DNA of 21,203 nt, from positions 1 to 21,203 of the IMG/VR virus record IMGVR_UViG_3300036761_003966. One strand, 5' to 3'. Numbering within the stretch: the first letter of the stretch is position 1; every line of letters begins with the position of its first letter. A program made the position numbers and the translations under genes. The stretch comes from a virus. The notes below the pieces were generated by a model. The model had not been told where the DNA came from, ran no database searches, and saw only the letters and a program-made list of their open reading frames with translations. Shown here piece by piece: positions 2,214-21,203 of this stretch.

Positions 2214-3032
2214 TCAGCGAGTTTTCTCCCTCCTCACGGCCTCTCGGTAGGCCGCATCATCGGCGTCAATGCGCTGAAGTAGGTCGTCCCGCCACTCGAC
2301 GGCCCAGTCGAGGCAGTTCGTGCATTTCGCCGGATGACCCGGGGCCGGTCGACCGCAGCAGTGGCCGCGCGAGAAACGCGCCTGGAGGCTCCACGACATG
2401 GAGTCGGCCGACGTAAGCGCGTCGCGCACCGGCTTGAAAAGGAGGCCGTCCGTCTTGAAGCCGAAGCCGTGGATCTTGATTCCTTGCGAGGCGAGGTCCT
2501 GGATCAGGAACCCGACGCGGACCGTGTCTTGCCTACGACAGACGGAGCCGAGACCGACGAGCGGTAGCTTCGCGAGGTCGACGCCGGCCTTCTCGTAGGC
2601 GGCGACATGGTCCATGTAGTCGCCGAACGTCCATCCCTGGAGGACAGGGACCCACGGTAGCCGCGGCGCCAGGTCCTTGAGTTCGAGGTAGTTGTCGATC
2701 GTAAGTCGCTGGTGGTCAGCGACCTTGAGTCCCGTCCTGACGAGTTGCTCTCCTTCACACATCCAGTCCTGGGCCGCTGCGAACTGGAGTTTCCCGACCT
2801 CGCGCATGAAAACCTGGACGTCCTCGACGTACTGCTCGGCCGAGATCGTCCAGCGACCATGCGCCTTGATCTGGGAGAAGCCGCCTGAGTCGAGCGCCCA
2901 GGGTCCCTTGGCCCGCGGGAAGCTCTTCCTGAGCTTGCCGTCCTTGTAGAAGGAAGCACGCGACACGAAGAGCGGAACGCTCGTCCGCTCGAGCCACCCG
3001 GGGTGATGTGCGCCGAGAAAGAAGGTCTTCAC
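2214..3032 (-). CDS. dpdA: DpdA-like 7-deazaguanine DNA transglycosylase
   Basis: A 272-residue protein of the TGT/DpdA superfamily. These enzymes replace guanine by a 7-deazaguanine base; TGT acts on tRNA and DpdA on DNA. Seen here: LDSGGFSQI (residues 47-55), matching the TGT substrate-binding DSGGF; AAQDWMC (86-92) with Asp89; VGLGSVCRRQ (159-168), matching the base-pocket loop; IHGFGFKT (187-194); and SADSMSW (208-214), whose Asp210 is the likely nucleophile position. A Cys/His cluster follows (Cys225, Cys226, His233, Cys237, Cys240 in CTNCLDWA), probably the zinc site. It is much shorter than a bacterial tRNA TGT (about 370 residues), matching short phage DpdA proteins. Start GTG 3032; thioredoxin lies downstream. 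No preQ0-synthesis gene (folE, queD, queE, queC) is in the window, so the base must come from the host or another phage region. Confidence 0.85.
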   Translation of the reverse strand: MKTFFLGAHHPGWLERTSVPLFVSRASFYKDGKLRKSFPRAKGPWALDSGGFSQIKAHGRWTISAEQYVEDVQVFMREVGKLQFAAAQDWMCEGEQLVRTGLKVADHQRLTIDNYLELKDLAPRLPWVPVLQGWTFGDYMDHVAAYEKAGVDLAKLPLVGLGSVCRRQDTVRVGFLIQDLASQGIKIHGFGFKTDGLLFKPVRDALTSADSMSWSLQARFSRGHCCGRPAPGHPAKCTNCLDWAVEWRDDLLQRIDADDAAYREAVRREKTR

Positions 3033-10949: not shown

Positions 10950-13328
10950 TCAGATGATCCACCAAGACGTCCCGTCACTCACGATCGTGATGGACTCGTA
11001 CTGAGCGATCAGCATCTGAGTCAGAGCTCCGTCGATCATTTCGACGCCGGCCGCGTCGATCGTGACCGCGTTTAGCGAGGAGTCCGTCTTCTTGACGTTG
11101 TAGGTCCTGCGGCTCGAGCTCGCGGCCGTGGGGAGCGTCAGAGTGACGGCGCCGCCGCTCGCGTCGACGAGCCAGACCGACGCCGTGGCATTCGCCGTCG
11201 TGCTGGCCGAGATCGACGTGACGCCGAAGCCGAGCGACCCTTGAACGTCGAGGGTCGAGAGCGGGGTGCCGGAGCCGACGCCGACGAGGCCGGTCGAAAG
11301 GATACGGACGCGGTCGGCGAGTGCGGCGTCGCCAGTCTGGAGCTTGACCTCGCCTCCGGTGCCGGACGGTGACGTGCCGCCGGAGAGGTTGAGAACGCCA
11401 CCGGTGCCAGTGCCCGACGCGTTGCCTGCGCCAAACGTCGCGGTTCCGCCAGCTCCGTTCGTGACGCCGCCTGTGCCGGCGACGATCGAGACGATGCCGC
11501 CGGCCGTGGTGGTCCCGCCGTTGCCGGCGGCGAACTGGATCGTTCCAGCCGCTCCGGTACCAGTGGCGCTTCCGGAGTTGCCGACGATGCTGCCGCCGGT
11601 CCTGTTGGTTCCGACACCGGAACTCGGGGCGAACGTGACCGAGCCGCCGTTGCCGTCGATCGGAGTGCCGCCCTCGATCTGAGCGTCTCCGCCGTTTCCA
11701 GATGTCGCGCCGCCGTTGCCGCCGATGAGATTGGCCAGGCCGCCGGCCCCGGTTGCGCCGCCGGTGCCGGCAATGAAGTTCGCGGTGCCTCCGGTGCCCG
11801 CTCCGTTTCCGTTACCGGCCTGGTTGGTCAAGAGGCTGCCTGCGCCGCCTCCGGTTCCATCGGCACTTGAGATGAAGAGCGTCGTGCTCGACGTGATCGC
11901 GGATGACCCGATGGTGATCGTGTTGCCGACCACCACGCTCGTGCCGGCGTAGACCGTGCGAGGCCTGGTCGCGCCCGTCGCTCCGATGTCGACCGTGTTG
12001 TCCGCGTTCGCGAGGAGGTGGCCGCTCCCGTTCACGTTCCAGCGCGCGACGCTGTTCGTCGTGAGTTGGATGATGTTCGATCCGGTCGCGGTCAAGCCGA
12101 GCGTAGCTGCGGTCGCCGTGACCGTGAGCCCTGCATCAGCCGTGACTGTCGTGCCGGCGAGAGTGACGTTGTTGGCCCTGATGTCCGTGAGTGTCGCCAG
12201 AGCACCGGCAGGAAGGACCGTGCCGCCGACGGTGTTGAACCGACCGAACTCTATGCGCGAGTTGGTCGGGTTCCAGACCGTGATGACGTCGAGGGCCGCA
12301 CCCTGGTCCCACGCGAGGCCGGCGAAGCTCGGGTCCGCGCCGCCGTTGTTCGCGTAGATCAGGGGGTCTGTCACGGTCAGGTTCGTGGTGTTGACCGTCG
12401 TGGTCGTCCCATTCACCGCCAGGTTCCCGTTCACCGTCAGGGTGCCCGTGATCGGCGTCAGGTTGATGGCCATGGAGCCGAGCACGCCAGACCCGACGTT
12501 GATCGTCGTGGCGTTGGTCGTGCCGAAGTTCATGGTGCCGGCAGCGCCGGTGTCGAGCGTGAGGTTCGCGCTCGAGGAGATCGTGTTCGTCGTGCCGTTG
12601 ATCGTGACCGTCGCGCCGACCACAACGCTCGTGCCGGCGTAGAGGGTCCTGATCCGGTTGATCGTGGCGACGCCGATGTCGATCGCGTTGTCGGCCTGAG
12701 GGACCAGGTGGCCCGGCGCGGCCTGGACCTGCCAGCGCGTTGCGGCCGCGGTCTGGAGGTTGAGCACCGTCGTGCCGTCGAGCGTGAGGGCGCTCGCCGC
12801 CGCCGAGACGACCTTCTGGCCGCCGTTCACCGAGATGTTGTTCGCGCCCGTCGTGTTGCCGACGGCGAGCACGGCGCTCAGGGCAGATGCGTTTGGCGGG
12901 ACCGTGCCGTCCACGAGGGCGTTCAGGGCGCCTATGATCGAAGTCCTGCCCGCGCCAGTGTAGGCCGCGTTCAGCGAAACCTGGCCGGCCTGGTTCAGGT
13001 TCGTTGCTGCGGCTCGACCCGTGAGGACAAGGTCGCTTCCGGCGGCCGAGGCGAGCGTCAGGTTCGTGGCGCCTCGGATCGCCTGGCCGGTCGACACGAC
13101 AATGTCGTTCGCTCCGGTCGTGTTGCCGAGGCCCAGGGTCGTGGAGAGCGAAGCTCCTCCGCCGCCACCGACCAGGTCGATGTAAGGGCCACCGTTCTCG
13201 CTGATCTTGGCCTTCCCGGAGACCAGGTCGTGGTAGATCCAGGTGTTTCCGATCGGGGGCAACTCCGGCTGCGGGATGCCGGGGAGATAGTCGATCGTCG
13301 GTGCCCCGATGAAGATCTCGCTCGCCAT
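10950..13328 (-). CDS. Long Gly-rich tail fibre protein
   Basis: A 792-residue protein; ATG 13328 has AGAGGAG upstream. The N-terminus (residues 28-52: GNTWIYHDL...SENGGPYIDLVG) resembles the N-terminal motif of the 880-residue fibre, suggesting a shared attachment or fold unit. Repeated GNTTGAN units occur at 68 and 157. A duplicated block of about 38 residues (GHLxxxADNxxDIG...RTxYAGTSVVVG) sits at 206-243 and 436-473. Residues 310-365 include VNTTNLTVTDPLIYANNGG and RIEFGRF, familiar from phage fibres. Residues 491-665 are a Gly/Thr/Ala-rich beta-helix-like stretch. The C-terminus (717-792: VDASGGAVTLTLPTA, then NVKKTDSSLNAVTID, and ESITIVSDGTSWW) is a widespread phage fibre tip. It is probably a trimeric adhesion fibre. 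Element B lies immediately upstream. Confidence 0.88.
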   Translation of the reverse strand: MASEIFIGAPTIDYLPGIPQPELPPIGNTWIYHDLVSGKAKISENGGPYIDLVGGGGGASLSTTLGLGNTTGANDIVVSTGQAIRGATNLTLASAAGSDLVLTGRAAATNLNQAGQVSLNAAYTGAGRTSIIGALNALVDGTVPPNASALSAVLAVGNTTGANNISVNGGQKVVSAAASALTLDGTTVLNLQTAAATRWQVQAAPGHLVPQADNAIDIGVATINRIRTLYAGTSVVVGATVTINGTTNTISSSANLTLDTGAAGTMNFGTTNATTINVGSGVLGSMAINLTPITGTLTVNGNLAVNGTTTTVNTTNLTVTDPLIYANNGGADPSFAGLAWDQGAALDVITVWNPTNSRIEFGRFNTVGGTVLPAGALATLTDIRANNVTLAGTTVTADAGLTVTATAATLGLTATGSNIIQLTTNSVARWNVNGSGHLLANADNTVDIGATGATRPRTVYAGTSVVVGNTITIGSSAITSSTTLFISSADGTGGGAGSLLTNQAGNGNGAGTGGTANFIAGTGGATGAGGLANLIGGNGGATSGNGGDAQIEGGTPIDGNGGSVTFAPSSGVGTNRTGGSIVGNSGSATGTGAAGTIQFAAGNGGTTTAGGIVSIVAGTGGVTNGAGGTATFGAGNASGTGTGGVLNLSGGTSPSGTGGEVKLQTGDAALADRVRILSTGLVGVGSGTPLSTLDVQGSLGFGVTSISASTTANATASVWLVDASGGAVTLTLPTAASSSRRTYNVKKTDSSLNAVTIDAAGVEMIDGALTQMLIAQYESITIVSDGTSWWII
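11334..11858 (-). repeat. Gly-rich low-complexity coding region
   Basis: This region encodes residues 491-665 of the 792-residue fibre: irregular repeats of the type GGTATFGAGN, GGIVSIVAGTGG and GGLANLIGGNGG, about 15-17 residues each. The regular hydrophobic positions between Gly turns suggest beta-helix or Gly-rich stacked turns. Confidence 0.65.
11910..12713 (-). repeat. Spaced duplication of a fibre module
   Basis: Two related blocks encode GHLxxxADNxxDIG followed by RTxYAGTSVVVG, one at 12600-12713 and one at 11910-12023, in the same reading frame of the 792-residue fibre. They suggest internal duplication of one structural unit. Confidence 0.65.
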
Positions 13329-14021: not shown

Positions 14022-15734
14022 TTACTTGACCGCGTCGACGAAGAGCGAGAGCGTCGGGTAGGGGTCGAACGTCTCGCGTGTGATCTGCGGCGCGAGACTC
14101 TTACGGAAGGGCATCTGCTGGACGCGGCCGAACCCAGCCTCGGTGAGCGCACGCGCGAGGACCGCGGCGTCGTACATGGACGAGTGTCCGGCGAAAAGGA
14201 GGGACCAGAGCTTCGCGGTCTCGAGCGGCGTGCCAGCGCACTCCTCGCCGAGTTCGTCGAACTGCGACATCGTGCCGGCCAGGTAGCACTCGATCAGCCT
14301 GCGGGCGTCCGGAACCGCAATCCGCAGCGTCGCCCCGTCCTTCATGACGCGCCGGCACTCGCGCAGGAACGCCGCGCCTTCCTTGAAGGTGAGGTGCTCG
14401 AGGAAGTGGCACGCGTAGATCAGGTCGACCGAGCCGTCGCGGAAGAGAAGCCCGTTGCGGACGTCGTACTGCCGGTAGTCGTACCCGTGCTGCGCCGCGA
14501 ATCCCTGGAGTGGGTGTTGGTCGACGTTCACCCACCCGTAGTGGAACTGGGTCATGAACGAGCCGACGTTCACCTTGATCTTGCCGTCGCCGCCAGGAGT
14601 GTCGGTGGGGCCGTGCTCGAGCTCCTCCTTGTCGATCGCCTCGTGACCCGGTGGGAGGATGCCCTCCCAGTAAGACTTGGGCTTTAGATTACAGTGGGTC
14701 TTGTCGAACCCGTCGTCCTCCGTACCGAAGTCGACGCCGTGCAGGCCGCGCTTGCACGTCCTGGCGAGCTCTGCGGCGACGGCCGGCATGGCCGACTCAG
14801 GGACATGCTCCAGCGTGGCGACGCTGAACGCGAGGTCGAACTCCTTGTCCTTGATCGGCCACGGCGTCTGGGTCAGGTCCCAGTTCACGACGTCCTCGAC
14901 GGCCCGAGTGAGGACGCAGTGGTCCGAGACCTCGAGCCCCTTGACCCTGACGCCGGCGTCCTCGGCACGCTTGAGAATGAACCCTCTGGCGCAGCCGAGT
15001 TCGAGGACGCTCTCCGGCTTCCTCTCCATGAGCTTGCGGAAGGTGAGCCAGTGGACCGGGTAGTCCCAGTAGCCCTCGCGGGCATAGCCGCCGACCTCGC
15101 CGCCGCCGTTGAAGTAGTGGCGGTTGTAGGCCTTCTTCCGCTGAGCGGGCGTCCACGTCGAGGCGTCGACGTGCAGCGGCTGCGTCGCCGGCGTGGGCGA
15201 CGGTGCGGGCGTCGGCGGTGTCGGTGGAGTCGCGGGCGTCCTTGCTTCGACAATCATGTCGGTCCTCAGTTCCCCGTGCGGGAGAACGGTCACGTCGCTG
15301 AACCCAGCCTCCTGGAAGAGGCGAATGGCGTAGTCGGGCGAGAACGCGGCCCGGTGCGCGTTCTCCTGGTAGTCCTGGTCGCCGAAGAGACACTGGGCGA
15401 TCTTCTCATCCCACTCCTCGCGCGCGAGCGCCCACCTGAGCTGCGCCTGCGTGTTCGGGATCACGAAGACGGCGACGCCGCCCGGCGCGAGGACTCGCAC
15501 CACTTCGGAGAGGAGCTTCGGGACGACGCGCCAGGAGACGTGCTCGAGGACGTAAGAGCAGAAGATCCCGTCATAGGCCCGGTCGGGGAGCGGCAGCGGC
15601 GGCCTCGAGATGTCGGCAACTATGTCCACGGTCGGGAGCGGCCGGGCGTCGACGTTGGGCCGAATGGCCGGCTTCTCGCCACCGCCGAGTTCGACGAGCT
15701 TCTGTCCCTGTCGGAACGGGAGGGCGTAGGTCAT
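14022..15734 (-). CDS. Protein with three tandem SAM methyltransferase-like domains
   Basis: A 570-residue protein; ATG 15734 overlaps the preceding stop (ATGA). Domain 1 (about 1-165): KLVELGGGEKP (12-22), acidic DIVADIS, LEHV (63-66) and LAPGGVAVFVIPN. A Pro/Thr-rich linker follows (165-187). Domain 2 (about 190-360): SVLELGCARGF (242-252, motif I), GLEVSDHC (motif II), FDLAFSVATLEHVP (299-312). Domain 3 (about 385-570): KVNVGS (387-392), WVNVDQHP, YDVRNGLLF, SVDLIYACHFLEHL (435-448), then RECRRVMKDGATLRIAVPDA, as in class I methyltransferases beside glycosyltransferases. Domain 2 has the best motif I. Domains 1 and 3 have unusual ones (LGGGEKP, VGS) and may be degenerate. Most likely it acts on sugars or glycans with the neighbouring glycosyltransferases; DNA or protein substrates cannot be excluded. 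Confidence 0.85.
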   Translation of the reverse strand: MTYALPFRQGQKLVELGGGEKPAIRPNVDARPLPTVDIVADISRPPLPLPDRAYDGIFCSYVLEHVSWRVVPKLLSEVVRVLAPGGVAVFVIPNTQAQLRWALAREEWDEKIAQCLFGDQDYQENAHRAAFSPDYAIRLFQEAGFSDVTVLPHGELRTDMIVEARTPATPPTPPTPAPSPTPATQPLHVDASTWTPAQRKKAYNRHYFNGGGEVGGYAREGYWDYPVHWLTFRKLMERKPESVLELGCARGFILKRAEDAGVRVKGLEVSDHCVLTRAVEDVVNWDLTQTPWPIKDKEFDLAFSVATLEHVPESAMPAVAAELARTCKRGLHGVDFGTEDDGFDKTHCNLKPKSYWEGILPPGHEAIDKEELEHGPTDTPGGDGKIKVNVGSFMTQFHYGWVNVDQHPLQGFAAQHGYDYRQYDVRNGLLFRDGSVDLIYACHFLEHLTFKEGAAFLRECRRVMKDGATLRIAVPDARRLIECYLAGTMSQFDELGEECAGTPLETAKLWSLLFAGHSSMYDAAVLARALTEAGFGRVQQMPFRKSLAPQITRETFDPYPTLSLFVDAVK

Positions 15735-16807
15735 GCGGCCGCCTTCGCCGCAAGGATGTTGGCCCAGGCCGCTGAGTAGAGCGGTCTGATCTTGTCCCAC
15801 GAGTAGCCCTGCGCCTTGCGCTTGGCGTTCTCACCCATAGCCCTGAGCGCGTCGGGGTGCGTCCGGCACCACTCGATCTTCTCGGCGATCGCCTGGGGAG
15901 ACCGGATCGGGACCTTGAAGCCATCCACACCCTCGTCGATCGCGTCCGCGCCGCCGGCGCCGACCGAGGCTATGACCGGCCTGCCGTGGGCCATGGCCTC
16001 GAGGATCTCAATTCCGTACCCCTCTGAAGTCGAAGGTTGAACGTAGACCGAGCACTCGTCGTAGAAGTCGGAGACGGACTCGACGAACCCGAGGATCTGG
16101 ACGTTCCCGCCGCCGTGCGCCCGGATCATGTGGATCGACTCCTCGGAGCCCCTCCCACCGATCAGGAGCCGAGCGTCCTTGTAGCCGATGGTCTTCCAGG
16201 CGCGCAGTAGGTAGACGAGGCCCTTATCGGGGCCGAGGGCGCCGAAGTAGCCGACTCGGAAGCCTCTCGGGAGCGGTCGTGTGACCGCCGGGAGCATGAC
16301 GCCGTGAGGGACGACGACCACGTTCTTGCAGCCGTAGCCACGCATCACGTCCGCGCTGAGCCTCGAGGGGCAGATGACGAGGTCAGCCTGCTTGTAGCCC
16401 TGGACGTACTGCGCCCAGAGCGCGTCGTCCTTGATGTGCGCGTAGGGGTAGTCGTAGCCCAGGAGGCCGAACTCCTCGATGCTGTGCCTGCGGTCGTGGG
16501 CGGCGGCGGTGTAGGAGACCCTCACGCCGGCCGCCTTCAGGCGTGCGATCGTCCTCGTGAACGTCCCGGCGTAGAAGTGGGCGAGCTCGTGGCGCCCCTC
16601 TTCGAGGGCCTTCCCGACTACTGCTTCGGCCAGCGAGTCGAAGACGAAGGGGTCGACGGCGCTCTGGTTCGTCGGGTCGATGACGCCACGATCGAGCACC
16701 TTGACGCCAAGGCCATGAAGACCCAGGAACTCGGACTCCCGCTGGGTGACGATCCCGCCGCCCGAGACGATCCCGACCTGATCGGCGGTGATGTAGAGAG
16801 CGGTCAT
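15731..16807 (-). CDS. GT4-family glycosyltransferase
   Basis: A 358-residue GT-B fold enzyme of family 4 (retaining, nucleotide-sugar dependent). ATG 16807 is chosen because it overlaps the preceding stop as ATGA and the protein then begins with a typical first strand (ALYITADQVGIVSGGGI). The C-terminal donor half shows VGYFGALGPDKGL (185-197, with Lys195), a LLIGGRGSEE strand, VQILGFVE, and the diagnostic E-x7-E in SEGYGIEILEAMAHGRPVIAS (Glu262 and Glu270), followed by GADAIDEGVDGF. No signal peptide or membrane segment: a cytoplasmic enzyme. The sugar and acceptor cannot be told. It overlaps the methyltransferase-like gene downstream by four bases, so the two products are probably made together. 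Confidence 0.92.
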   Translation of the reverse strand: MTALYITADQVGIVSGGGIVTQRESEFLGLHGLGVKVLDRGVIDPTNQSAVDPFVFDSLAEAVVGKALEEGRHELAHFYAGTFTRTIARLKAAGVRVSYTAAAHDRRHSIEEFGLLGYDYPYAHIKDDALWAQYVQGYKQADLVICPSRLSADVMRGYGCKNVVVVPHGVMLPAVTRPLPRGFRVGYFGALGPDKGLVYLLRAWKTIGYKDARLLIGGRGSEESIHMIRAHGGGNVQILGFVESVSDFYDECSVYVQPSTSEGYGIEILEAMAHGRPVIASVGAGGADAIDEGVDGFKVPIRSPQAIAEKIEWCRTHPDALRAMGENAKRKAQGYSWDKIRPLYSAAWANILAAKAAA

Positions 16808-17190
16808 GTGGGCACGGGGCAGAGCGAGCAGCAGTTCGTGGCCGAGCCGTTCTCCCACTTGTGCCAGGCCAGGCCGTGCTCACACCTGCCGTGAGCAAGC
16901 GGCTTGATCTGGCCCGGCCCCGGATCGCCCTCATAGATGATCTCGGTGAGTCCACCCTTCTTGAGCGCCGTGTAGAGCTCGTCGGAGGTGCAGTCGAGCT
17001 TCCTGGGCTGCTCCTCTTCACGAAGCTCCACGTCCTGAACCGTCCAGTCCTCCCACTTGGCGGCGGAGTTCCTGTTGACGGCCTCGGCTTCGGCTTCCTC
17101 CCTGGACCTGAACGCCGGGCCCCAGGCGTGGGAGATGCACGCGCCGGTGCCGAACTCGCTCGGGGAGGAGAACAGGACGAAGACCTTCAT
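16804..17190 (-). CDS. Small protein with C-terminal Cys/His cluster
   Basis: A 128-residue protein; ATG 17190 overlaps the stop of the phosphatase gene (ATGA), and its own stop overlaps the next start (ATGA). The first 50 residues (MKVFVLFSSPSEFGTGACISHAWGPAF, then EEAEAEAVNRNS) look like a small alpha/beta domain. The C-terminus reads GRCEHGLAWHKW...CCSLCP, so two Cys/His groups could form a small zinc ribbon. No enzyme motif recognised. Its position between the phosphatase and a glycosyltransferase implies a partner role in the same pathway, but that is only inference. Confidence 0.75.
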   Translation of the reverse strand: MKVFVLFSSPSEFGTGACISHAWGPAFRSREEAEAEAVNRNSAAKWEDWTVQDVELREEEQPRKLDCTSDELYTALKKGGLTEIIYEGDPGPGQIKPLAHGRCEHGLAWHKWENGSATNCCSLCPVPT

Positions 17191-17708
17191 TCCGTGATCC
17201 TGACGTGGCTGCCGCAGTTCTTGCACTTGCTGACGGGTCCGTTCCTCGCGACCATGCCGACGAAGGTCGGGTTGTTGAAGCTGAGCGGCCCACGCATGTG
17301 TCGAGTCAGGTCGATGGCGTTGCGCCACGGGACGCCGCACCGAACGAGGATCAAGCCAGAGATCAGCGCCGAGCGGTTGTGTCCCATGGCGCAGCAGGAG
17401 ACGACACTCCTGCCACTGTCGAGCACGGCCTTGCCACGATCCGCCGCCTTGTTGGCAAGATCCCAGATCGCCTGAGCTTCATCCTCGGGCGGGTCGAAGG
17501 CGTCGTTCATCGCCGCGTCGAACGTTTCGGTGACGCAGCTCTGAATCGTGGCCTTGACCTCGTGTGCGGCCATGACGACCAGGCCGATGTTGGCGGGCCA
17601 ACCTGGCTGCATGAGCTCGGCCAGGCCGCACTGAAACAACGAGGCTCCGTTCGGGAACGCGTGGATGAGGACGTTGTCGATCCAGCGTCTTTGTCCGGTC
17701 GTGTCCAC
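17187..17708 (-). CDS. Dual-specificity/Tyr phosphatase-like protein (CX5R)
   Basis: A 173-residue protein from GTG 17708, three bases after the previous stop, with GAGGTGA just upstream. The CX5R phosphatase signature is CAMGHNRS (Cys106 nucleophile, Arg112 phosphate-binding, Ser113). It sits after a buried strand (GRSVVSC) and before a hydrophobic helix (ALISGLILVRCG), as in cysteine-dependent phosphatases. The usual HC is CC here (Cys105). FDPPED (71-76) may supply the general-acid Asp. Residues 130-150 (NAIDLTRHMRG...FNNPTF) match the helical end of the family. A short C-terminal extension holds KCKNC, half a zinc-ribbon. Substrate unknown: the family includes phosphoprotein, phosphoinositide, RNA and sugar-phosphate phosphatases. 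Given the neighbours, a sugar phosphate or a phosphorylated host protein are the main options. Confidence 0.85.
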   Translation of the reverse strand: MDTTGQRRWIDNVLIHAFPNGASLFQCGLAELMQPGWPANIGLVVMAAHEVKATIQSCVTETFDAAMNDAFDPPEDEAQAIWDLANKAADRGKAVLDSGRSVVSCCAMGHNRSALISGLILVRCGVPWRNAIDLTRHMRGPLSFNNPTFVGMVARNGPVSKCKNCGSHVRITE

Positions 17709-17711
17709 CCG

Positions 17712-18095
17712 TCACCTCACAGACGCGAAAGAGAGCCGTTCCGTCGCGTGCAGCGGCAGACCGTTGACCTCGTGCTCCTTCTCCTGGGTGCATCGACCGA
17801 AGATCGAGCCAGCCGGGCCGAGCGTCTTCTCACAGCGACGCCGCTCGAGGGAGCGCGCGAGGAGCTCGACCGAGATCCCCTTCGCCCTCTCGATCTTCGA
17901 CTCGTAGCCGTGGAACTGCACGCCTGGCGCTGGACAGAGCGTCGGCGTGTAGCCCACGACCTCGCCCGGCTCGCCGAACTCGCGCCCCCAGGGACACTGG
18001 CACGCATGGATCGCCCTCGAACCGTTCGGGAACGGCGATGTCGTGAACAGCCCGGTCTCGCCGCAGCCGCCAGGCTCCTCGCACCTCGGCTCCAT
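17712..18095 (-). CDS. Cys-rich small hypothetical protein
   Basis: A 127-residue protein; ATG 18095 overlaps the stop of the GT4 gene by one base (TGATG), so translation is probably coupled. Seven Cys occur, several paired: Cys5/Cys11, Cys32/Cys34 in HACQCPWG, then Cys54, Cys88 and Cys102. A small zinc-binding or knuckle-like fold is plausible. Residues 65-90 (SKIERAKGISVELLARSLERRRCEK) form a basic helix. No known family recognised, no membrane or signal segment. Its position inside the glycosyltransferase cassette is the only clue to its job. Confidence 0.75.
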   Translation of the reverse strand: MEPRCEEPGGCGETGLFTTSPFPNGSRAIHACQCPWGREFGEPGEVVGYTPTLCPAPGVQFHGYESKIERAKGISVELLARSLERRRCEKTLGPAGSIFGRCTQEKEHEVNGLPLHATERLSFASVR

Positions 18096-19117
18096 CACCA
18101 CCCGCCCGTCTCCAGCGCCTCGAGCGCCAGCTTCTCGTAGCCCTCGACCATGCGCTCGACCGAGAACTGCTTCGCCCACTCGATACAGTCCTCGGACCTG
18201 ATCTTCGCGACGGCGTTCGTGCGGACGAGCTCCTCGACCTCGTCCTGGGTCTTCACGAGGAACCCGGTCGTGCCGTGCTTGACGGTCTCGCGCATGGCCC
18301 CGTGGTCGAACGCGATCACGGGGCACCCGCACGCCTGGGCCTCGACCGGGGCGAGGCCGAACGGCTCGCGGAAGTGGAGGTTCATGTGGAGGAGCGCCTT
18401 TCCGACACTAAAGAACTTGACGCACTCCTCGCGTGACTTGCCGCCGTGGTAAGCGATGTTGTTCTTCGCCTGGGCCAGGAGGCGCTGCGCGTACTCGGGC
18501 TCGCCTGTGATCCGGTCGTCTCCCACGAGGTCGAGCGAGACGCGCAGTTTGCGGGCGACGTCGACCGCAATGTGCGGGCCCTTGATCTTCGACATGCGGG
18601 CGAGGAACAGGTAGCGGTCGGTCCGCGCCACGCCAGGAGACGGCCTGTAGAACCCGAGGTCAATGCCGTTGTGGCACGTCCTCGCCGGCACGCCCCAGAT
18701 CTCGGAGGCGTGCGTCGCCTGGTCCCTCGAGATCGCGACGAGGCACGGCTGGACGATCGGCGGCGGTGACCCGTACATGGTGTTCGCCGGCGCGTGGAGG
18801 ACGCCCAGGACGGGCGCCTTGAGCTTGCCCTCGGCCTTGAGGATGTAGGACCACTTCTGCCAGGAGTTGTCGATCACGGCGTCGTAGCCTGGAAGCCTGT
18901 GCCAGTAGCCGGAGTAAGCCTGCATCTCGCTCTCGCCGAGCGTGGTCCCGTGGAGTTCGACGCCAGGAGGCGCCGTCGAGCCTTTCGGCGCCACGAGGAG
19001 GACGTTGTGGCCTCGCTTGGCCAAGCCCTCGGCCTGTTGCCAGGAGAGCATTTCGAGGCCCGAGTAACCGGCTGGCGGGCACGTCATGATCGTGGTCGAG
19101 ACGACGACAATCTTCAT
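18095..19117 (-). CDS. GT4-family glycosyltransferase
   Basis: A 340-residue GT-B enzyme; ATG 19117 has GGAG upstream, 14 bases after the previous stop. The N-terminal acceptor half begins MKIVVVST with a Gly-rich turn (AGYSGLE) and HNVLLVAPKGS. The donor half has HNGIDLGFYRP (149-159), YLFLARMSKIKGP (169-181, with Arg174 and Lys179 as expected phosphate contacts) and the diagnostic EPFGLAPVEAQACGCPVIAF (Glu251 and Glu259, E-x7-E), then GAMRETVKHGTTGFL. No export signal. Sugar and acceptor unknown. It is only distantly like the GT4 protein encoded at 15731-16807, so the two probably add different sugars or act on different acceptors (inference). Confidence 0.92.
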   Translation of the reverse strand: MKIVVVSTTIMTCPPAGYSGLEMLSWQQAEGLAKRGHNVLLVAPKGSTAPPGVELHGTTLGESEMQAYSGYWHRLPGYDAVIDNSWQKWSYILKAEGKLKAPVLGVLHAPANTMYGSPPPIVQPCLVAISRDQATHASEIWGVPARTCHNGIDLGFYRPSPGVARTDRYLFLARMSKIKGPHIAVDVARKLRVSLDLVGDDRITGEPEYAQRLLAQAKNNIAYHGGKSREECVKFFSVGKALLHMNLHFREPFGLAPVEAQACGCPVIAFDHGAMRETVKHGTTGFLVKTQDEVEELVRTNAVAKIRSEDCIEWAKQFSVERMVEGYEKLALEALETGGW

Positions 19118-19131
19118 GGTGGCTCCGCAGG

Positions 19132-19770
19132 TCAGACAGAGAGGGGCTTGAGGAGGCCGCCGAGTTCACTGGCGGCGAGACCGGCGTGCTTGCACGCCAC
19201 GCTGAAGTCGACCTTGATCGAGAAGCCGTGCTGTTTCGCCTTGCGACAAAAAGCGAAGTCCTCGCTGCACCTCTGGTCAGCCGGGATGTCGGGCCTATCC
19301 AGGAGCCACTCGAACCACGGCTTCGGCACGCGCTCGAACACCCTGCGGTGGATAAGGAGCGCCCCGGCGCCAACCATGTCGGCATCCACGAGTCCTCCAG
19401 GCGGGGCGTCGGTGACCCACACCCTCTGTCCACCCGTCTCGCGAATGACGACCGGCACGATCGGCTCAGCACGGCGGTAGTAGAGACCGCTGACTATGTC
19501 GCCGCCACGGTTTATCAGCCTGTAGATCGTGTCGGGCGGTGGGATCACGTCGTCATCGAGGAAGAACAGCCACTGGAAGCCGTTCTCCATCATGCGCTCG
19601 ACGGCGGTGTTCCTCGCGTGATCGAAGGGCATGCCTGCGAAGAATGCGAACGAGCCGCCGCCCGGGATCTGGAGCTCCCTGAATCCCTTCGACCAAGCCG
19701 TCGTGACCGTCTCCCTGGTCAGGATACAGACCAGCACAGACGGCCTCTCGAGCTCCCACGCTCCGCTCAT
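19132..19770 (-). CDS. GT2-like (GT-A fold) glycosyltransferase
   Basis: A 212-residue protein; ATG 19770 is chosen because GAGGAAGA precedes it and the upstream in-frame extension is Arg-rich and unconvincing. Residues 10-20 (PSVLVCILTRE) are the first strand of a GT-A fold. FFLDDDVIPP (70-79) holds the DxD-like metal/nucleotide-sugar motif (Asp72-74). GDIVSGLYYRR (90-100) and GAGALLIHRRVFE (134-146) are further strands of this phage/environmental type, and SEDFAFCRKAK (169-179) supplies the likely catalytic acidic pair. CKHAG near 194-198 could be a metal-binding His. It is shorter than many GT2 enzymes. It opens the cassette, so it may add the first sugar (inference). Confidence 0.85.
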   Translation of the reverse strand: MSGAWELERPSVLVCILTRETVTTAWSKGFRELQIPGGGSFAFFAGMPFDHARNTAVERMMENGFQWLFFLDDDVIPPPDTIYRLINRGGDIVSGLYYRRAEPIVPVVIRETGGQRVWVTDAPPGGLVDADMVGAGALLIHRRVFERVPKPWFEWLLDRPDIPADQRCSEDFAFCRKAKQHGFSIKVDFSVACKHAGLAASELGGLLKPLSV

Positions 19771-19824
19771 TCTTGGTCTTCCTCGCGCTCCATGTGACAC
19801 CACCTGCCGACATGGTGACAAGAG

Positions 19825-19890: not shown

Positions 19891-20268
19891 TCATTCGGGG
19901 ATCAAGATCCAGCCGTCGAACATCCCAAACCACTCGATGAACGCACCTGCTTCGCCGGTCACGACTATCTGGACCAACCCGCTTGCCGCAACGACGCTGT
20001 ATGACCAGGTCGACGCACCGGGATCGTCGTTCTTCTCCGCGAGGACTATGTTTGGGTTCGTGACGTCGATGACGCCGGCGTCGTTGCTCTTTACCCAGTA
20101 CACGGCCCACCAGGCCCTGGTGTCCTTGGTGACCGGGTTCCTGGCGCAGACGCGAATCTGAAGAAAGCCGGCGCCGTTCGCCGGCATGGCCATCTCGACG
20201 AGGATCGTCGGAGTGGCGTCCTGCGTGCCAGCGCCGCTCTGATTGGTGACCTGCTGTGCAGTGTCCAT
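19891..20268 (-). CDS. Small fibre-associated protein
   Basis: A 125-residue protein; ATG 20268 overlaps the stop of the upstream fibre gene by one base (TAATG). It is mostly beta strand: ILVEMAMPANGAGFLQIRVCARN, then TRAWWAVYWVKSND, then WSYSVVAASGLVQIVVTGEAGAFIEWFG, ending FDGWILIPE. The alternating strands without a catalytic motif suggest a beta-sandwich virion or baseplate component. I recall small proteins of this style beside phage fibres but cannot name a family. Translational coupling to the fibre gene suggests the two products work together. Confidence 0.78.
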   Translation of the reverse strand: MDTAQQVTNQSGAGTQDATPTILVEMAMPANGAGFLQIRVCARNPVTKDTRAWWAVYWVKSNDAGVIDVTNPNIVLAEKNDDPGASTWSYSVVAASGLVQIVVTGEAGAFIEWFGMFDGWILIPE

Positions 20269-21203
20269 TATTGCGCGACTCCTGCGAGCGTGATGAGCCC
20301 GCTGGTCATGTAGTTGTCGACCTTGACCAGGATGCCGCCGGAGATCCAGACGCCGACGCGCTGCGTGACACGACCAGACGTGCCAGCCACACCGGGACCG
20401 CCGCCGGAGGAGGCTCCTGTGACGTAGCCGGACTTGGTGAGCAGGAGGCCACCCGATCCCACGTAGGCGAGCGCGTTCAGGCCGTTGAACCCGGAGCCCG
20501 CGATGGCGCCAGAGGCGGAGACCAGGAGTTTGCCGTTCGCGATGAACTGAGCGGTGGCCCCGCTCACGACGTTGAGGACGCTGATCCCGACAGCCGGCAT
20601 GCGGAGGCCTGATCCGGGCTGGGCACGGACGAGGCCGACGCCGCCCGAGCCAATGGCCACCGCGACAAGGCCGGAGATCGCCTCCTCGGCAATGAAGTCG
20701 TCAGAGATGGCGTTCCTGGCGTAGGTGATGATCGCGCCGGAGGTGAAGTGGAAGGTGCCGATCTGTCCCGAGGCGATCGTGCCGGACAGGACCGCGCCGG
20801 AGGTGTAAGACGGCACGAAGCCGGACGCGAGGGTTGTCCAGGTGAAGTCGTCGCGCAGCACCTTGGTGCCGTCAGGAGCGCCTCCGGTTACGCCGAGCGT
20901 GCCTGACGTGATCGCCCCGGACGAGACGTGGAACTGGCCGATCTGCCCTGAGCCGATCGCGCCGGAGAGCAGGCCGCCCGAAGCGACGTGGAGGGTGAAG
21001 ATCTGTCCGGATCCGATCGCGCCGGAGCCCAGGCCGCCAGAGGAGACGTGGACCGTACCGACCGCGCCCGAGGCAATCGAGCCCGAGACGACGGCCGCGT
21101 TGCCGACCTGACCGGAGTTCACCGCGCCGGAGGACAGCACGAACTGACCGAGCGAGCCGGACGCGACGCGGCCGGAGACCACGGAGCCGGAGGCGAGGTG
21201 GAA
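20268..21203 (-). CDS. Repeat-rich fibre protein (5' end beyond window)
   Basis: The frame is open to the right edge; the GTG at 21182 lies inside the repeats, so the true start is outside the window. At least 311 residues are present. The first 105 visible residues are imperfect repeats with the core [FLV]HVxSGxLxSGAIGSGQIG, a beta-repeat shaft; two neighbouring units are exactly 20 residues apart. After an interruption (TKVLRDDFTWTTLASG), one more unit (GTIASGQIGTFHFTSGAI) follows. Then comes a C-terminal domain with LVAVAIGSGGVGLVRAQPGSGLRMPAVGI, ANGKLLVSASG and VGVWISGGILVKVDNYMTSG. It is probably a trimeric tail-fibre shaft and tip, or a decoration fibre. The next gene is coupled by TAATG. 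Confidence 0.85.
   Translation of the reverse strand, partial: FHLASGSVVSGRVASGSLGQFVLSSGAVNSGQVGNAAVVSGSIASGAVGTVHVSSGGLGSGAIGSGQIFTLHVASGGLLSGAIGSGQIGQFHVSSGAITSGTLGVTGGAPDGTKVLRDDFTWTTLASGFVPSYTSGAVLSGTIASGQIGTFHFTSGAIITYARNAISDDFIAEEAISGLVAVAIGSGGVGLVRAQPGSGLRMPAVGISVLNVVSGATAQFIANGKLLVSASGAIAGSGFNGLNALAYVGSGGLLLTKSGYVTGASSGGGPGVAGTSGRVTQRVGVWISGGILVKVDNYMTSGLITLAGVAQ
20890..21203 (-). repeat. About 60-bp coding repeats of a fibre shaft
   Basis: Imperfect repeats encode units of up to 20 residues with the core SGAIGSGQI and FHVxSG. The two most alike copies lie at roughly 20943-21062. Copies continue past the right edge. Confidence 0.75.

Follow-up and report, generated by a model that had tools for sequence, protein, structure and literature searches.

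A viral genome fragment from IMG/VR (record IMGVR_UViG_3300036761_003966; the whole 21,203-nucleotide stretch that was analysed is referred to as the window) encodes a single protein in which three class I methyltransferase-fold domains (D1, D2 and D3) are fused. The fusion recurs on other phage contigs as the last gene of a conserved glycosyltransferase cassette, which in most loci adjoins genes for giant Ser-Gly (SG)-repeat proteins. On balance, and with moderate confidence, we favor the reading that the protein would be a modular cytosolic glycan methylase finishing a phage-made glycan, with giant SG-repeat tail fibers as its most likely acceptor. The features of the window are listed in Table 1; relatives are designated by L numbers.

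Table 1. Position and properties of the features discussed in the text
Feature	Coordinates	Strand	Properties
Tri-domain methyltransferase gene	14022..15734	(-)	570 aa; intact relatives on other contigs
D1	15240..15734	(-)	residues 1-165; ELGGG, D29 in PNxD, D41, LEHVSWR, NAHR (relatives NTHR)
Pro/Thr-rich linker	15147..15239	(-)	residues 166-196; putative recombination breakpoint region in relatives
D2	14604..15146	(-)	residues 197-377; LELGCARG, E268, D286, LEHVPE, DDGFDKTHC
D3	14025..14588	(-)	residues 383-570; GSF loop; D405, LEHL, GHSSMYD kept; closest to D1
GT4b, GT4-family glycosyltransferase	15731..16858	(-)	PF13692 E 4e-32; directly upstream of the methyltransferase gene; likely start ATG near 16807
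GT4a, GT4-family glycosyltransferase	18095..19117	(-)	PF00534 E 6e-21; conserved neighbor
GT2-like glycosyltransferase	19132..19821	(-)	first gene of the cassette; phrog_1574 E 9e-13; phrog_12406; conserved neighbor
Giant Ser-Gly-repeat, tail-fiber-like protein, C-terminal part	20268..21203	(-)	extends past the window; proposed acceptor
DpdA-family gene	2214-3032	(-)	PF23859 E 1e-66, phrog_1279

Three methyltransferase-fold domains in one intact reading frame

The gene is an uninterrupted open reading frame on the minus strand, with its ATG at 15734 and its stop at 14024-14022. The ATG overlaps the stop codon of the upstream GT4 gene (ATGA, 15734-15731), which suggests that the GT4b and methyltransferase genes are translationally coupled. 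A first protein scan of IMG/VR recovered the complete fusion on 13 other contigs at 46-54% identity, together with one truncated, identical copy, and later scans added four full fusions (L017, L025, L032 and L157), giving 17 other contigs in total, some of them nearly identical to one another. A frameshift or assembly error joining separate genes had been named in the initial annotation as one of the outcomes that would overturn its proposal. Such a join would be in keeping with the stops and frame changes that interrupt one relative (L034), as well as with another (L033) in which the domains are split over two genes, but the single intact frame in the window and in the 17 other contigs, which come from different metagenomes, refutes it, and its probability is negligible. 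From these comparisons the fusion is far beyond chance. Each domain of its standard form is under purifying selection, with dN/dS of ~0.03-0.17 per domain where synonymous change was unsaturated.

Profile searches and structure prediction, both suggested at the outset, gave a consistent picture. Pfam Methyltransf_11 (E 6e-30), _23, _25 and _12 each matched three separate stretches of the protein, and each domain also matched a methyltransferase profile on its own (residues 1-167, E 1e-10; middle domain, 8e-9; C-terminal domain, 8e-9). An AlphaFold2 model built with 21 sequences had a mean pLDDT of 88 and a pTM of 0.65; all domains scored about 90, and pLDDT fell below 50 only at linker residues 172-186. 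When compared with solved class I methyltransferases, D1 (residues 1-168) gave a Z score of 16.3 to 7pd7, D2 (residues 193-376) 14.4 to 3e8s and D3 (residues 382-570) 14.6 to 3d2l, so that all three adopt a confidently predicted class I methyltransferase fold, a class whose profiles are uninformative on substrate. The motifs from which the fusion had been recognized were all present: LVELGGGEKP (D1), SVLELGCARGF (D2) and VNVGSFMTQFHYGWVNVD (D3), together with LEHV, LEHVPE and LEHL. Profiles, predicted structure and conservation thus agree with the initial annotation on three methyltransferase-like domains in one protein.

The statement that no named phage protein has this arrangement also held, as no full-length relative was found among 50,697 annotated phage records, where the best match was a 27% partial, D3-like, single-domain one. 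No bacterial or archaeal relative was confirmed among 84,980 GTDB genomes in either of two scans (full length and D3) seeded with a short pattern, which distant relatives could escape, and on this result a bacterial origin was rejected. A search of the open-access literature for papers on three or tandem methyltransferase domains with a glycan or polysaccharide returned none.

Domain motifs and modular architecture

A glycine-rich motif I and an acidic residue after the second strand are present in D1 (ELGGG, D29) and D2 (LELGCARG, E268), and the core residues of both domains are invariant in the alignment of relatives (alignment A1). The consensus in relatives is ELGGG, an acid in PNxD, EH(I/V)SWR and NTHR for D1, and LEIGxARG, EHIPE and GFDKTHC for D2. 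For D3 it reads N-x-G-(S/C)-(F/Y), GWxNxD, LEHL and GHxxxYD; the acid D405 is kept, and a glycine-rich motif I is lacking. The D3 glycine loop is G-S/C-F/Y in 24/24 copies compared, the second motif-I glycine being replaced by an aromatic residue; single-domain relatives retain GAG or GCG. Because this loop is invariantly remodeled, D3 may be methyltransferase-like in fold only, and either atypical or non-catalytic, and a description of the protein as three active methylases is doubtful for the same reason. A histidine before the last helix, at a similar place in each domain (H127, H347 and H517), is invariant in all three (alignment A1), and for these residues we infer a possible catalytic role.

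The earlier suggestion that two domains may be inactive scaffolds finds no support in D1 and D2 of the window, where cofactor signatures and the His motif are kept. It may apply to D3, whose glycine loop is remodeled in every member, and, in one variant clade (L039-L050 and L056), to the middle domain, which is divergent, has lost EH and DKTHC and is under relaxed selection (dN/dS 0.12-0.32). As to the origin of the three domains, D1 and D3 matched each other with an E value of 6e-14 and have His motifs that align, and pairs involving D2 gave about 3e-6. D1 and D3 being mutual closest kin, a simple internal triplication is not favored, even though the fold is common to all three.

The Pro/Thr linker described after the first domain is real (about residues 166-186), but it is much shorter or absent in nearly all relatives; the Pro/Thr stretch is therefore local to the window copy, a variable spacer. 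Other arrangements of the domains were also found: D1 occurs alone in L131, D1 and D3 occur without D2 in L059, and in L033 D1 is fused to an FkbM-family domain with D2 and D3 in the next gene. Nucleotide identity between L039 and L040 falls from 90-98% to 55-80% at the D1/D2 linker, and between L039 and L056 it rises there from about 70% to about 90%. These sharp shifts point to recombination at the domain boundary. FkbM-family methyltransferases, an extra methylase type, lie in or near the cassette in L031 (8335-8961) and L033 (8300-9823), one of them fused to D1.

The glycosyltransferase cassette and its Ser-Gly-repeat neighbors

The survey of gene neighborhoods proposed in the initial annotation found the fusion beside the same glycosyltransferase trio in nearly all loci, in the order GT2-like, GT4a, zero to three inserted genes, GT4b and methyltransferase (>25 loci). 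A query with GT4a alone returned 41 loci, eight of which end too early; the methyltransferase or its D1 was present in 31 of the 33 that could be assessed. In the two loci without it, L159 and L160, the glycosyltransferases are followed by genes for a DegT/DnrJ/EryC1 sugar aminotransferase and an N-formyltransferase, and L160 also carries a nucleotide-sugar epimerase and a Methyltransf_13/14 sugar C-methyltransferase. Since sugar-tailoring genes here take the place of the methyltransferase, the cassette is tied to glycan tailoring. Together these neighborhoods argue strongly, if indirectly, for synthesis and tailoring of a glycan by the cassette, and lend indirect support to the earlier idea that the protein may methylate several positions of one glycan, for which the acceptor is deduced from gene context. 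The cassette glycosyltransferases showed no membrane segments by hydropathy, and Pfam and PHROG profiles detected no glycosyltransferase family within the tri-domain protein itself, the glycosyltransferases being separate, adjacent genes.

Several individual loci deserve mention. The glycosyltransferases and sugar-modifying genes of L159 (16689-18930) and L160 (6711-11410) resemble a phage-borne modified-sugar pathway. In L031 (5721-8117) GT4a is interrupted by an in-frame, intein-like insert of ~450 amino acids, located where its window homolog has residue 249; an intron was rejected, as there was no Rfam match and the insert reads as an intein. The cassette copy of L034 (7900-11640), with its several stops and frame changes, reflects either decay or error-prone assembly. 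Between GT4a and GT4b the window carries a weakly dual-specificity-phosphatase-like gene (17187-17708, minus strand), where other phages carry different genes.

SG-repeat open reading frames adjoin the cassette, upstream of it, in most loci. On a near-identical contig (L130) the SG-repeat protein has at least 2284 amino acids and 276 SG dipeptides, and that of L016 has 222 SG in 1821 amino acids. When SG density was scanned across two large records (180 kb of a 181-kb record and 220 kb of a 225-kb record), SG-rich open reading frames (density above 0.03; median 0.003) formed one block only, beside the cassette. Relatives of the SG protein found by tblastn are annotated as tail fiber, host specificity protein J or minor tail protein, and some SG-repeat proteins found in this way belong to phages outside the set scored for the cassette. 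The flanking sequence examined in L159 and L160 contains few SG repeats, if any, and the SG association can therefore not be attributed to one particular cassette gene. Some relatives (L025, L028, L029 and L030) have poly-Thr/Ser proteins after the cassette or flanking it. Mucin-like poly-Thr/Ser or Pro-Thr-Ser stretches, candidate O-glycosylation sites, were noted in L025 (11678-20863), L030 (4854-5846) and L029 (11828-21637). The SG-repeat and poly-Thr/Ser neighbors are the putative glycosylated proteins; the SG repeats may also be stalk repeats of trimeric fibers that carry no glycan.

The cassette occurs in varied, uncultured and often large phages in IMG/VR. Full-strength matches to a T4-like Gp23 major capsid protein in two of the records indicate that the cassette phages include some that are large and T4-like. 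A tRNA-Gly called by ARAGORN in the window (11493-11562, plus strand) lies antisense within a Gly/Ala/Thr-rich structural gene and is probably a false positive.

Proposed function and comparison with known systems

In the favored reading, soluble phage-encoded GT2-like, GT4a and GT4b enzymes from the same gene row would build a short glycan, which the tri-domain protein would then methylate, presumably with SAM; most simply, hydroxyls of the outer sugars would be capped. D1 and D2 are the likely active sites, and D3 would be either an atypical third one or a conserved sugar-binding or structural module. The adjacent position of their genes makes the phage's own giant SG-repeat tail-fiber proteins the most likely acceptor. 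On the number of methyl marks there is a serious rival, in which a single domain (D1 or D2) is a working methylase that makes one mark and the others bind substrate or serve as structure. The remodeled loop in all 24 copies of D3, set beside the GAG or GCG of single-domain relatives, and the relaxed middle domain of one clade speak for it; against it, D1 and D2 of the window both retain motif I, acidic residues, EH and the His motif, D3 retains its acid, LEHL and GHxxxYD under purifying selection, and D1 is found standing alone (L131) as well as fused to an FkbM-family methyltransferase domain (L033). We regard this rival as a real possibility, though the less probable account.

The destination of the glycan can also be read differently. 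Serotype conversion of the host by phage glycosyltransferases is well known (PMC12619734), and bacteria end O-antigen chains by glycan methylation, as with WbdD (PMC3482155), so the cassette might add methylated sugars to lipopolysaccharide or capsule on the host surface and block adsorption of other phages. This appears unlikely, however, as the cassette holds soluble glycosyltransferases, with no flippase, polymerase or membrane glycosyltransferase, and its position beside fiber-like genes is constant. Considerably less likely still is a role in glycosylating and methylating phage DNA bases, a hypermodification that would protect the genome. Virus glycosyltransferases that hypermodify DNA have been reported (Pyle et al. 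2024, as cited in PMC12619734), and the window encodes DpdA, a 7-deazaguanine DNA-modification enzyme. Yet no PF00303 protein was found in 11 relatives, most of them incomplete, including records of 390, 235, 225 and 181 kb; this family includes dCMP hydroxymethylase, and its absence disfavors an hmC-DNA acceptor. DpdA was found in 0/16 relatives in a search run without a positive control, on which basis it was rejected as a cassette partner and probably has no connection with it. The cassette lies, moreover, among fiber-like and not replication genes.

If the tail-fiber reading is true, it is relevant to the ways in which phages protect or adjust their receptor-binding fibers. A broader version, which we put forward as speculative and improbable as a whole, would be a widespread and so far phage-only glycan pathway, in which the glycosyltransferase trio and a swappable multi-methyltransferase place multiply methylated sugars on SG-repeat fibers, domain exchange by recombination varies the methyl pattern and D3, a new kind of remodeled methyltransferase-fold module, reads sugar instead of using SAM normally. 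To our knowledge, few cases of phage virion glycosylation are known. The conserved, modular cassette ending in a triple methyltransferase is a concrete candidate for methyl-capped phage glycans, with the tri-domain protein as a possible multi-site sugar methylase, and it supplies testable acceptors as well as a natural set of domain swaps.

None of the systems compared has three methyltransferase-fold domains in a single chain. The top whole-model Foldseek matches in the PDB were tandem plant phosphoethanolamine methyltransferases. Like the tri-domain protein, the phosphoethanolamine N-methyltransferases of plants (AtPMT1/2) and nematodes (HcPMT) join class I methyltransferase domains in tandem within one polypeptide, but they have two domains and N-methylate a small molecule, and with a whole-chain rmsd above 18 Å the match of the model reflects shared fold and tandem layout only, not function. 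Single-domain phage Methyltransf_11-type proteins (such as L103 and L084) share the fold and motif series of D1 and D3 (LNIGAG...GWHNLD, SEHFMEHL); they differ in having one domain, a normal glycine loop and no conserved glycosyltransferase cassette recognized nearby. WbdD of E. coli O9a/O8 is likewise a multidomain protein whose class I methyltransferase domain caps a glycan (PMC3482155). It is, however, a bacterial kinase-methyltransferase with a coiled-coil C-terminal region that acts on host O-antigen, outside any phage fiber locus, whereas the tri-domain protein lacks this combination of kinase and coiled-coil C terminus, a Pfam scan finding no kinase family in it; the O8 WbdD homolog is also without the kinase (PMC3482155). 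Among phages, mycobacteriophages are reported to carry glycans on the capsid and tail-tube subunits of their virions (Freeman 2023, cited in PMC12619734). The closest working analog is A064R of the chlorovirus PBCV-1, a three-domain enzyme (glycosyltransferase, glycosyltransferase, methyltransferase) that uses its final domain to O-methylate the rhamnose at the end of the capsid glycan (PMC9614988). A064R (with A061L) resembles the present protein in being virus-encoded, in its length of ~600 amino acids, in its three fused transferase domains and in carrying a class I methyltransferase domain, which in A064R adds an O-methyl to the outermost sugar of a virion glycan, a role that the gene neighborhood suggests for the tri-domain protein. 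It differs in combining two glycosyltransferases with one methyltransferase and in acting on N-glycans of a eukaryotic-virus capsid, whereas in the tri-domain protein all three domains have the methyltransferase fold and the glycosyltransferases are separate genes.
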